Source: Balneolaceae bacterium (GTDB lineage: Bacteria > Bacteroidota > Rhodothermia > Balneolales > Balneolaceae). From it: a stretch of DNA of 64,000 nucleotides. Where the stretch lies: assembly GCA_006969905.1 (NCBI GenBank), contig CP030887.1:1470001-1534000 (forward strand), in the 5' to 3' direction. The number at the start of each line of letters is the position of its first letter. The first letter of the stretch is position 1. Positions 3,994-17,832 of the stretch are shown here, in pieces. A program made the translations under genes and the position numbers. Under the pieces are notes generated by a model. It worked only from the letters and a program-made list of their open reading frames with translations, searched no databases and was not told the DNA's origin.

Positions 3994-4638
3994 ATGAATA
4001 TCTTAACTGTTATTATCAACTTTCAAACACCTGGTCTTTTAAAAGAAGCTGTATCTACTTTTACTAAAATCTATCCGGATCAGGATGTTTTGATAGTGGA
4101 TAATGGATCCCAGGATAATTCCAGAGAAATAATCCAAGAGATTGAAGAAACATCCAGCAGAATAAAGACGCTTTTCCTGGAAAATAACATTTTTCATGGC
4201 CCAGCGATGGATCTTGTTCTGAACAAATTCTCAAACTACGACTACTTATTTTTTCTTGATAGTGATACGGAAACCAGGAAAACCGGCTTTCTTGAAGCTA
4301 TGTACGAAATTGCTGAAAAGGACAACAATGTTTATGCCATAGGGCAAAAAGAAAGGGTAAATAAAAGAGGGTTCAAAGATGAGCAGGGTTTCCCGGTAAT
4401 TCTTACCCCTTATCTTTTTTTGCGCAGAGCTTTGTATAATTATTTCCCTCCTTTTTTTCACCACGGCCAGCCAACATTGCAAAACTTCTTTGAAGCAACA
4501 GGTAAAGGGTATAAGCTGGTTAATTTTCCTATTGAAAAGTATATTTTCCACCACTGGAGGGGAACTGCAAAAAAGTACGGTTATAAACTTGGGTTAAAAG
4601 GTAAAATCGATTATCTGTTGAATAAATTTGGTTTCTGA
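3994..4638 (+). CDS. Family 2 glycosyltransferase
   Basis: This 214-residue protein has a GT-A fold N-terminus (LTVIINFQTPGLLKEAV, VLIVDNGSQDNS) and a DSD metal/nucleotide-sugar motif at residues 89-91. No membrane segment is seen. The ATG follows the TGA of the porZ-like gene with no gap, so the two are surely cotranscribed. The product probably transfers a sugar to a surface glycan. Donor and acceptor cannot be read from the sequence. Confidence 0.85.
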   Translation: MNILTVIINFQTPGLLKEAVSTFTKIYPDQDVLIVDNGSQDNSREIIQEIEETSSRIKTLFLENNIFHGPAMDLVLNKFSNYDYLFFLDSDTETRKTGFLEAMYEIAEKDNNVYAIGQKERVNKRGFKDEQGFPVILTPYLFLRRALYNYFPPFFHHGQPTLQNFFEATGKGYKLVNFPIEKYIFHHWRGTAKKYGYKLGLKGKIDYLLNKFGF

Positions 4639-6718
4639 CTTGTCTGACAAAACTATAGACATATCTGTTGTAATAGTTAATTATAAGGTTAAGGAGTACA
4701 TTGCCAATCTGCTTAACTCACTTTACAAAGCACAACAAAACCTATCGCTTGAAATATTTGTAGTCGATAACGCATCAGGGGATGGTTCCAGAGAATTTCT
4801 TACCGAAAGATTTCCGAATATTTTCTTTATCCAGAACGATGAGAATCTTGGTTTTGGAAAAGCCAATAACCTGGCAATAAATCAGGCTTCAGGAAAGTAT
4901 ATACTTATTATCAATCCTGATACTTTGGTAAGTGAAGATACTCTTACCAAAATGGTATCCCATATGGAAAAACATCCTAATTGCGGAGCTGCGGGGTGCA
5001 AGATTTTAAATCCTGATGGTACATTTGCACCCGAATCAAGAAGAACTGTCCCATCAATTTGGTCATCTTCAGCAAAGTTACTTGGTTTAAGTTCGCTATT
5101 TCCGAAATCCAGACTTTTTGGGGCTTACTATATGAGCTGGTTAGATGAAAATGAACCTGCCCGGATTCCGGTTCTCTCTGGAGCATTTATGTTTTGGAGA
5201 GCAGAGGTTTTGAAAAGTTTGCAAGGCTTTGATGAACGCTTTTTTATGTATGGAGAGGATATTGACCTTTGCTACAGAATTCAGAAAACTGAATATCACA
5301 TTGATTATGTACCCGCAACATCTATCATTCATTATAAAGGAGAAAGCACTCAAAAAGATAATCTAAAGTATATCAAGCTTTTTAACAAAGCGATGTATCA
5401 ATTCTATGATAAGCACTACAATACAGCATATAGCTCCATTTTCAGAGTATTGATTTATTTGGCAGTAGCACTAAAAACGATTTTTTCTTTTTCAATGTCC
5501 TTTATAAGGAAGTCGAAATTACTTTTTCTTGATGTGCTTCTTTTTAATGTAGCTTTTTCATTGGTTTATATTATACGGTTCTCTATTAATCTATCCGAGA
5601 TATTTGAGCCGGAGCGATTCCGTTTCTTTGCTGTGAATTTGATTGTTTCTGTTATTTATCTTGTAGCTGCTTCATTTATAGGTTCTTTCAAAGATAAAGG
5701 CCAGTCATTATCTAATCACTTGAAATCATTGATAATCACTTTTATCGGGATCGTGATTATAAGCTTTTTTGCTAACCAATTTGCATTTTCGCGACTTGTA
5801 TTGGGTGTTGGGTTCATTCTATCTGCTGCATTAACAATATCCATTCGGTTCTTTGTTACTAACAAAGCTAATACAGGGATACAGAGGACAGGTCGAATTC
5901 GAAATGCAAAGATACTGATCGTTGGTGATGTAATGCATGTTAAAGAGGTTGTGAACAAAATTCACTCCAGGCCCGATTGGCATTATGAAGTTATAGGAAC
6001 AGTGCAAGCAGAAGAAGGTGATGTAAAGGATGAAAAAGCTATTGGTGATATTTCTCAGTTATCCGAATTGGTAAAAGCTTATAACATCGATCAGGTTTTC
6101 TTTGTTTTAGCGTCTATTTCCTATCAAAGAATGCTTCACTCGATTAATAAACTTCAGAACGAAAACATTGTTTGTAAGCTGATTCCTGAGTCAATGGATT
6201 TTATCCTGGGCAAATCAAATGTCGAATATTTAGAGTCTATTCCTTTAGTAAAAGTTGAGTTTGAATATTCAAGACCAGCGAACGTATTTATAAAGAGAGT
6301 GTTTGATATTCTTTTGTCGCTACCACTATTCCTGATCTTATTCATTACAGTAAGCGCTTCGGCAGTATTATCAAAAAAACACAAAGTCAGATTTAATGGG
6401 TTGGTTTTTTTTAAAAATGGAAAAGCTGCCAAATGGAAGAATCGGTTTCATGCAATGGCATATATTTTATCAGGTAAAATGAGTTTTGTCGGTTCTCCTT
6501 TCTATCAGGAAAAGGGCAACTATTCAAAATATAAAAAGGGAATTACCGGACTTGTCCAGGTAAATGAAAGTAAGATGTTAAGTATTGAAGACCGTGAGCA
6601 GTTTGATATTTATTATCTTCAAAATTATTCTATTTGGATGGACATTGATATACTGGCAAAAAGCCTTTTTAATAAGGTTTCATTAGCAGATCAAATTGAA
6701 AAAGCTAAGAACGTTTAA
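4628..6718 (+). CDS. GT2 glycosyltransferase fused to a degenerate polyprenyl sugar-phosphate transferase
   Basis: Residues ~10-270 form a rhamnosyltransferase-like GT2 domain (ISVVIVNYK, VVDNASGDGS, NPDT at 96-99, GEDIDLCYRI). Several membrane segments follow at ~275-420, then a Rossmann-like part (AKILIVGD). The C-terminus begins KRVFDILLSL, like the WbaP/WcaJ catalytic domain. It lacks the KFRTM...DAE catalytic segment and keeps only remnants such as GKMSFVGSP and the tail GLVQVN. The transferase half is therefore probably not catalytic. The start is a TTG at 4628 (11-base overlap with the upstream gene) or a TTG at 4640; no ATG fits. It converges on tgt, with the stops overlapping. Confidence 0.8.
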   Translation: MVSDLSDKTIDISVVIVNYKVKEYIANLLNSLYKAQQNLSLEIFVVDNASGDGSREFLTERFPNIFFIQNDENLGFGKANNLAINQASGKYILIINPDTLVSEDTLTKMVSHMEKHPNCGAAGCKILNPDGTFAPESRRTVPSIWSSSAKLLGLSSLFPKSRLFGAYYMSWLDENEPARIPVLSGAFMFWRAEVLKSLQGFDERFFMYGEDIDLCYRIQKTEYHIDYVPATSIIHYKGESTQKDNLKYIKLFNKAMYQFYDKHYNTAYSSIFRVLIYLAVALKTIFSFSMSFIRKSKLLFLDVLLFNVAFSLVYIIRFSINLSEIFEPERFRFFAVNLIVSVIYLVAASFIGSFKDKGQSLSNHLKSLIITFIGIVIISFFANQFAFSRLVLGVGFILSAALTISIRFFVTNKANTGIQRTGRIRNAKILIVGDVMHVKEVVNKIHSRPDWHYEVIGTVQAEEGDVKDEKAIGDISQLSELVKAYNIDQVFFVLASISYQRMLHSINKLQNENIVCKLIPESMDFILGKSNVEYLESIPLVKVEFEYSRPANVFIKRVFDILLSLPLFLILFITVSASAVLSKKHKVRFNGLVFFKNGKAAKWKNRFHAMAYILSGKMSFVGSPFYQEKGNYSKYKKGITGLVQVNESKMLSIEDREQFDIYYLQNYSIWMDIDILAKSLFNKVSLADQIEKAKNV

Positions 6719-15655: not shown

Positions 15656-15688
15656 GATATTCCGCCTTTCGGAATAAAAAATAGGGTA

Positions 15689-16435
15689 ATGCAACAAGTG
15701 TTGACGATAGAGGGGTTGTCAAAAAGGTTTGGCAAAAAAAATGTATTAACTGATGTCAATCTGACTATTGATAAAGGGGAGTGCCTGGGATTAATTGGTA
15801 AAAACGGATCGGGGAAAAGTACGCTCATCAATATAATCATTGATGTTGTAAAGCCTGATTCCGGCTCCATTTTGATTTTTGATGAATACATTAACGATGA
15901 ACAGGTTGAGGTAAAGAAAAAAATTGGTGTACTACCTGAATTCAATCCCGTGATAGAAGAATTTTCTCTCCAAGATTATCTTGAATATGTAGGGTTGATT
16001 TACCAACTGGATAAAGAACTGATTAAAACCCGGAGCGAGTACCTTATCGATTATTTTTTTGAAGAAGAGCCTGATCAAAAAAAATCGATCGGGCAATTTT
16101 CAAAAGGGATGAAAATGAAGACAGGCCTTTGTGCCGCTCTTATCCATAAACCGGAATTCCTGATCCTGGATGAGCCTTTTGATGGTATGGATATGTTTTC
16201 CAGTAAAAACTTGGTTGAATTTCTTAACGATTATCGTGAGCGAGGCAATACCATTCTGGTATCTTCCCATGACATGCTTTTTATGGAGCGCATCGTAACC
16301 AAAGTTTCTGTCATCAAAGAAGATATACTTCAAACAATTTCCAAAGAGGAGATCTTATTAAGCGGGGAAGGTTTTGAAGAGTACGTGGCAGAAAGGATGG
16401 GCTATAACCCAAAAGAGATCAAAGAATTCTCCTAA
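15689..16435 (+). CDS. ABC transporter ATP-binding protein
   Basis: This 248-residue ATPase has Walker A GKNGSGKST at ~37-45, the signature as FSKGMKMK (in place of LSGGQ), Walker B FLILDEPFDGMD and switch His in VSSHD. This is the type found in small exporters with one membrane subunit. Its TAA overlaps the ATG of the permease reading frame (TAATG at 16433-16437), so the two are translationally coupled. Confidence 0.92.
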   Translation: MQQVLTIEGLSKRFGKKNVLTDVNLTIDKGECLGLIGKNGSGKSTLINIIIDVVKPDSGSILIFDEYINDEQVEVKKKIGVLPEFNPVIEEFSLQDYLEYVGLIYQLDKELIKTRSEYLIDYFFEEEPDQKKSIGQFSKGMKMKTGLCAALIHKPEFLILDEPFDGMDMFSSKNLVEFLNDYRERGNTILVSSHDMLFMERIVTKVSVIKEDILQTISKEEILLSGEGFEEYVAERMGYNPKEIKEFS

Positions 16436-17774
16436 TGAATGGGTTGGTTTATTTCCTGATCAGGAAAAAGCTGCAAGCTATTCCAAAGTGGCCGAATATT
16501 GCCAGGTTTACACTCTATACAATTGCTGCGCTCTTCGGGGGCTTAGCAACGGGTTTGGATTGGGTGCTCTTATTGATATTGTGGCAACTTCCCCGGCTGT
16601 TCAAACTCACCAGGTACTTACTATTTATACATTGCTGTTCGGCTTTTTGCTGTTTTTAATTGATTTGTATCCCGTACCAAAACTTATAGGCGGCGAGCTT
16701 CCTAATTACTATCCTATAGAAGCTGTTACAAAGCTGAAAATAAGCATTACGTTTAGCGTACTAAGGCATTTTGTTTTCTTCATCGTATTTATGCACATAC
16801 TGGTATCGTATGTAAGTAAGGCTGTCGATTTTGCTGATGGCACACTCAGCTTTGTTCTTCTGATGAGTTTTTATCTTACCAACAGAACCTTTGTAAACCT
16901 GATTTCTTATGAAGTCAAAAATGGCTTTTTGATTACTATATCCGGGATAGCCCTGGTAAGCTTGGGGATGGTGCTCTACTGGTACAATGGCTTTTCAGAT
17001 TTGATTTTCCTGAGTTGTATGCTTGTTTTTCTTGCCCTCTTCATACTCTATGTATTGTCTGAAGTAAAGCGGAAGACAAAGATCAAAAAAAATCAAAATG
17101 CATATCGCAAAACACTATTCCTAAGAATGTTCTCAAAAAAGGAACTACGTGTTCTTATTCTTATGGGCTTCACGGTAAAGCTATTCATATTGCTTTTCCT
17201 GGGTATTACTTTAACCAAAAAAGGAGATCTGCCCTTTAGTTTGCAAGCACTGCTATATTTGGGTATTTCTCCTTTGGTTTTGTTTAACTACATGGGTCTC
17301 AATTTTTTTGGGATTAACCGGACTCATTTTTTTACTCATTTACTAAGATCAGCAAAAGCCACAACTCTCTTTAAATTGTATGGAAGGTTTATGGTCATAT
17401 TGGGAATTATTGATCTGTTTTTATTGGGCATTTTTCTGGTAGTTACAAGTACTTTTTCCTTCGAGATCATCACTTTTTACATAGCTACTTTTGCACTGCT
17501 ATTTTTTGCAGGTTTTTATCTTTCCTTAAAAACGCCTGTTGTAAGAGACAATTTCATTTCTTTCGATTTCACAAAAAATGCTTCAAGTATCAGCCTGCCG
17601 GCAATTATCTCTGGCTTTGTAATTATCAGTATTACATACAGCATTCAATTTCTACCGTATTACTATGCGATTTATGCTCTTATGATTGCCCTGAGTGCAT
17701 ATTTGATTAAAAGGTGGAAGTATAGCATGGGAGAAATCGGCCAAAAGATGATTATTAAAATGAGGAAAGCATAA
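16435..17774 (+). CDS. ABC transporter permease, apparent -1 frameshift at ~16551-16557
   Basis: The coupled ATG at 16435 reads MNGLVYFLIRKK...AALFGGLATGL, a plausible membrane-protein start, but that frame runs out at 16659. The rest of a roughly 446-residue, ~10-span permease (GALIDIVATSP...IIKMRKA) continues in the -1 frame to 17774. The frames join smoothly at GGGTTTG (16551-16557), read as G GGT TTG in the first frame. That is the X XXY YYZ form of a slippery site. Upstream of the join, the second frame encodes only out-of-frame sequence from the ATPase gene. A one-base deletion, a sequencing error in the G/T runs, or programmed frameshifting could each explain this. Confidence 0.75.
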
Positions 17775-17832
17775 GCTTTAGAATGAAGTTGCAAGTATTG
17801 TTGTTGGTTTATGCGAAACATAAAAAGATGCT

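Follow-up and report, generated by a model that had tools for sequence, protein, structure and literature searches.

The ABC transporter gene pair and its neighborhood

The window analyzed here is a stretch of 64,000 nucleotides from Balneolaceae bacterium (GenBank assembly GCA_006969905.1, contig CP030887.1, positions 1,470,001 to 1,534,000 of the forward strand), and features are given in window coordinates. On its plus strand lies a gene for an ABC transporter ATPase of 248 amino acids (15689..16435; PF00005, E 4.4e-28), which bears out the description of this gene as intact in an earlier note on the sequence. The ATG of the following gene, at 16435, shares a base with the ATPase stop codon (TAATG), a junction found also in L019. 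This following gene encodes a multi-helix membrane protein, and the same side-by-side pairing of ATPase and membrane partner occurs in L003, L016, L019, and L020. The membrane partner has no Pfam, NCBIfam, or PDB sequence match. Its AlphaFold model is all-helical but modest (mean pLDDT 68, pTM 0.47), and a fold search with this modest model returned 51 matches up to E 10, none of them at 0.001 and the best at E 1.2. With no family, PDB sequence, or useful fold match, the protein is called an ABC permease here because it is paired with the ATPase. The other neighbors referred to below are, from their sequences, presumably a CPBP-like protein, CdsA, a dipeptide epimerase, and a short-chain-dehydrogenase-like (SDR) protein.

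The pairs most like that of the window come from Fodinibius halophilus (L089) and Balneolales MAG.339 (L090), where the two-gene order is the same and the ATPases are 61-62% identical to that of the window, a value computed on L016 and L019, which are the same sequences as L089 and L090 and in which the ATPases likewise stand beside homologous permeases. Unlike the window gene, however, the permeases of L089 and L090 read in one frame from their start codons, over 451 and 448 codons, respectively.

A break in the permease reading frame

From the ATG at 16435, frame 0 runs for only 74 codons before a TAA at 16657-16659, while frame -1 is open from 16362 to a stop ending at 17774. The permease N terminus is encoded by frame 0 for about 40 codons (16435..16557), with 39-43% identity to the N termini of L019 and L016, and the remainder, 407 amino acids without a Pfam or NCBIfam match, by frame -1 (16551..17774). 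The absence of any stop within these 407 codons agrees with the earlier observation that the rest of the permease looks intact. The frame-0 tail past the junction (16558..16659) gives weak matches to six homologues (best E 0.24).

A comparison by blastp of both frame pieces with six homologues illustrates how the two frames together account for a single protein. Residues 1-41 of frame 0 match residues 8-48 of L019 (39%, E 2.8e-9) and the N terminus of L016 (43%, E 3e-7). Frame -1, taken from 16551, matches L016, its closest homologue over the main part, with 33% identity over 368 columns (E 4e-76) and residues 47-453 of L019 with 29% over 410 columns (E 3e-59). On L019, the first piece thus ends at residue 48 and the second starts at residue 47, so that the pieces abut at the heptamer described below, within a few codons. 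The join on L016 is less exact, as the first piece ends at 61 and the second starts, with its residue 14, at position 66. Because the two pieces correspond to successive stretches of a single protein, the frame break is more than a chance juxtaposition, and the break that the earlier note had described in an ABC permease is thereby confirmed; for the same reason, an overlap of two unrelated genes was rejected. Codon usage agrees only in part and is a weak witness to the junction: the score of frame -1 overtakes that of frame 0 between windows centered at 16539 and 16554, but frame -1 is also the higher in the first two windows (16464 and 16479), where homology favors frame 0.

At the junction lies GGGTTTG (16551..16557, plus strand), which, in the phase set by the ATG at 16435, reads G_GGT_TTG and so has the X_XXY_YYZ form already pointed out for the joining site. 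Phase variation via a long repeat was rejected, the runs at the site being three G and three T.

Homologues and conservation of the break

Among 244 genomes of the class, a profile search matched 13, comprising the window's own genome, 11 homologues, and one spurious match, so that the count of 11 used throughout leaves out both the own genome and the spurious one. For the latter (G446, E 7.6e-4, two internal stops), the locus is taken up by a 575-codon frame that resembles translation factor IF-2. Within the family, the -1 piece matched 5 of 92 genomes, the own genome included, and the permease gene is therefore uncommon. Three of the relatives, L089-L091 (Fodinibius halophilus, a Balneolales MAG, and a Balneolaceae MAG), were found by a contig scan with an alignment, and their permeases have the same first residues as those of L016, L019, and L003, respectively; when only the -1 piece served as the query, the contig scan yielded no relatives. 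The names of these relatives would place the window in or near Balneolaceae. No relatives were found on plasmids, and none of 41 pattern matches on viral contigs was confirmed.

In each of the 11 homologues, one open frame of 455-552 codons (stop to stop) runs through the aligned position, although for two of them (L101 and L103), whose profile matches are confined to the C-terminal half, the N-terminal alignment is less sure. Nowhere in any of these genes does GGGTTTG occur in the shift phase. A different X_XXY_YYZ heptamer lies in the neighborhood in three of them (L096, L097, and L100), without a break, and L018, a more distant homologue, likewise has one uninterrupted frame (480 codons). 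The alignment of homologues proposed in the earlier note has thus been made, and neither the break nor the heptamer is conserved; with an identity of only about 30% over the main part, these intact homologues are not close relatives, and the part of the proposal that concerned close relatives is answered only partly.

That no homologue is split also bears on a reading in which the break marks a divided gene, the 74-residue piece and a re-started second piece both being made and assembling. The ATPase and permease genes overlap in a TAATG junction, and translational coupling has been described for ABC transporter genes; Antonov et al. 2013 (PMC3711429) read most frame transitions in ABC transporters as coupling. 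A re-start would nevertheless have to cope with a frame -1 whose first ATG comes only at residue 81 of the -1 piece, and such a divided permease is extremely improbable.

Slippery heptamer and recoding signals

The earlier note had raised programmed -1 frameshifting that could set the permease level; in the form considered here, slippage at G_GGT_TTG would keep the permease low relative to the ATPase. The position and phase of the heptamer, together with a frame -1 open for 407 codons, speak for such a mechanism. In the surrounding 464 kb, in-phase X_XXY_YYZ heptamers occupy 1007 of 129,156 positions (0.78%), a frequency that makes the heptamer weaker evidence than the homology of the two pieces. 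GGGTTTG itself is found in that phase in 11 of the 294 other ORFs with 150 codons or more, which counts against recoding. These counts exclude a 5000-base N run at contig positions 1465001-1470000, as does a further heptamer count of 109 of 1007. In simulated one-base losses, a heptamer lay within about six codons in 7.6% of cases when losses were uniform, in 7.4% when they fell in runs of at least three bases, and in 10.9% when they fell in runs of at least four. It touched the affected run in 628 of 23,686 losses (2.7%) for the former class of runs and in 452 of 7,548 (6.0%) for the latter. A random loss thus seldom leaves such a site, and the coincidence counts for recoding to a mild to moderate degree, while a low prior and the lack of conservation weigh on the other side. 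More generally, because 7-11% of simulated losses leave a heptamer within about six codons, and 3-6% leave one touching the run, finding a slippery-looking heptamer where a frame breaks speaks only moderately for recoding.

Stimulatory elements offer a second line of comparison. The RNA downstream of the site (16563-16642) is less stably folded than shuffled versions of it (199 of 200 shuffles fold at least as well; z +1.92), and folding of a longer stretch (16520-16642) is unremarkable (z +0.38), pseudoknots being outside the model used. A stimulatory structure in this place is usual for programmed -1 frameshifting, though in bacteria it is not invariable. Upstream, a Shine-Dalgarno (SD)-like GGGGG (16537..16541, plus strand) stands 10 nucleotides before the heptamer, a spacing like that for which SD-like sequences are reported as stimulatory by Sharma et al. 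2014 (PMC4066793). The motif is probably there by chance, as SD-like sequences at such spacing precede 14.1% of codon positions in the region. Such a motif is absent from all 11 other in-phase GGGTTTG sites, which favors recoding a little but is unsurprising against a 14% background. A further point against recoding is that SD-like motifs show no clear enrichment at gene starts: they precede 36 of 222 ATG starts versus 27 of 222 random positions and, in another count, 35 of 221 versus 47 of 221, with starts chosen mechanically in the surrounding 464 kb (G000:C1:1270001-1734000), although these do contain a single copy of the 16S 3'-end pattern with CCTCC (contig position 1642738).

Published shifting rules place the heptamer among the less favorable, but not the impossible, sites. 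In E. coli, according to Sharma et al. 2014 (PMC4066793), motifs with heterogeneous ZZN codons, and likewise mixed X/Z motifs, shift less; the exception to this reduced shifting is R_RRU_UUY rather than R_RRU_UUR, so that G_GGU_UUG falls outside it, and UUG is by these rules a poorer shifting codon. The same study reports that, with a strong pseudoknot, 61 of 64 heptamers are shift-prone, the three that failed not including G_GGU_UUG, and that real frameshift sites need not be efficient. The related G_GGU_UUU is listed among the shiftiest sites on mammalian ribosomes in a review (PMC5009743) that also describes low-level frameshifting that compensates for indels. Antonov et al. 2013 (PMC3711429) name an ABC transporter cluster as one of seven that may show both frameshifting and coupling.

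Established systems provide a measure of how far the window site departs from known recoding. Like the sites of IS1 and IS3 family transposases and of dnaX (PMC4066793 and PMC3711429), it has the heptamer form and the phase at the junction; unlike them, it is unconserved, ends in UUG, and has no predicted downstream structure. No sign of a mobile element was seen in the sequence examined. With the break and heptamer missing from all 11 homologues, no downstream structure, and a poorer shifting codon, programmed frameshifting as set out in the earlier note is not supported and must be considered highly unlikely. A more restricted version, in which a one-base change newly created a -1 site that is tolerated because GGGGG-aided slippage still yields some permease, a small fraction of ribosomes thus setting the transporter level in this species only, likewise appears very doubtful. 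Were recoding true, the site would be an unusual one, UUG-ending and limited to one lineage.

The gene slot in related genomes

The permease protein has no match in any of seven genomes of the same genus, all of which have the CdsA and dipeptide-epimerase genes. In the five congeners that also have the SDR gene on the stretch compared, no ATPase or permease match (E 1e-3) lies between the flanking genes. From its absence in all seven congeners, the permease looks dispensable.

A different picture comes from the Balneolales MAG (L019/L090), in which the order is CPBP-like protein, CdsA, ATPase, permease, and SDR, without a dipeptide epimerase between CdsA and the ATPase. Here, the permease, unbroken over its 448 codons, stands in the matching place. 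The simplest reading is that the ABC pair is ancestral at this position and has disappeared from most of the genus, and hence is dispensable; gain of the pair in the two lineages, those of the window and of L019/L090, is a possible alternative.

The slot between the epimerase and SDR genes (15656-17832 in the window, where it holds the ABC pair) has varied contents among relatives. In G001 and G003 it holds an ORF of 209-211 codons, presumably for a fatty-acid-hydroxylase-like protein, and in G005 an ORF of 352 codons, whereas in G002 and G004 only 66 and 34 bp separate the flanking matches. When the G005 slot was searched loosely, a single weak ATPase match (E 0.022, 22% identity) appeared inside the 352-codon ORF; this match was not counted as a remnant.

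A possible sequence error and the frequency of other frame breaks

If the permease frame is continuous in the organism, the record may simply have lost a base through a base-calling or assembly error. The continuity of the homologues, the cleanness of the rest of the gene over 407 codons, and the intact ATPase all accord with such an error, and Antonov et al. 2013 (PMC3711429) would ascribe most frame breaks that are one-off and BLASTp-validated to sequencing errors rather than to genuine indels. No other protein-coding frame break was found in the 49,850 bp of the window that are covered by congener proteins (82 of 244 ORFs matched), nor in the 141,100 bp covered in the surrounding 464 kb, where 242 ORFs were checked of 366 matched and 1057 given. 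Of the first stretches of 19 further G007 contigs, those of C3, C6, C7, C8, C9, and C12 entered the 464-kb comparison; the remaining contigs had no strong match to the region, and neither did C6 and C7. The assembly is thus not rich in indels, although a low error rate would still be compatible with these figures. The runs at the site are, in addition, short, and the missing permease in the congeners makes real decay plausible. An error in the record is the main rival explanation, less likely than a real mutation but a serious possibility.

Several candidates for additional breaks were set aside in this comparison. Two flagged frame changes at 1641.5-1643.6 kb of the contig are short ORFs at the 16S 3'-end pattern and were read as ORFs of an rRNA operon. 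Two partial rows were dropped as representing a single window gene of different architecture. In the window, a frame at 4622-6499 and beyond, of at least 626 codons, is matched by two congener proteins of 403 codons over its first part only; it presumably starts as a family-2 glycosyltransferase and continues as a polyprenyl-sugar transferase.

A recent disruption as the preferred reading

Taken together, the evidence suggests that the permease gene probably carries a recent and ordinary one-base disruption of its frame near codon 40. Ribosomes starting at the ATG at 16435 would then terminate at 16657 with a peptide of 74 residues, full permease would not be made save by low background slippage, and the intact ATPase would probably be left without a partner. 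We infer that the frame change is recent and belongs to the living organism rather than to the assembly; the disruption looks young because the -1 part has acquired no stop in 407 codons. An assembly poor in indels and a setting in which the gene seems dispensable make a real mutation somewhat likelier than an error. Against a recent indel stand the heptamer of slippery form exactly at the junction and the SD-like GGGGG at a spacing reported to be stimulatory. The other explanation raised in the earlier note, a base missing from the G or T run, therefore fares better than programmed frameshifting: a one-base loss of frame fits, the homologues being continuous, whether it came about by mutation or by an error in the record.

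The break is in these terms an ordinary, unconserved one in an uncommon transporter gene. It resembles the frameshift pseudogenes, or singleton frame transitions, treated by Antonov et al. 2013 (PMC3711429) in being a single unconserved frame change, in a gene that is otherwise intact and has continuous homologues; unlike that class, it may equally be of the sequence-error kind.

Homologous pairs in other settings

Pairs related to that of the window also occur in quite different surroundings. In a Balneolaceae MAG (L003, 1-4033; L091), the ABC pair lies beside a thioredoxin-like protein, a 738-codon frame, and a short ORF. The 738-codon frame begins like what we take to be a C39-type peptidase, and the start of the short ORF presumably resembles a Gly-Gly leader; the neighborhood suggests a bacteriocin-like export cluster. 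L018 and L020 have in common a similar membrane neighbor of 232-240 codons.
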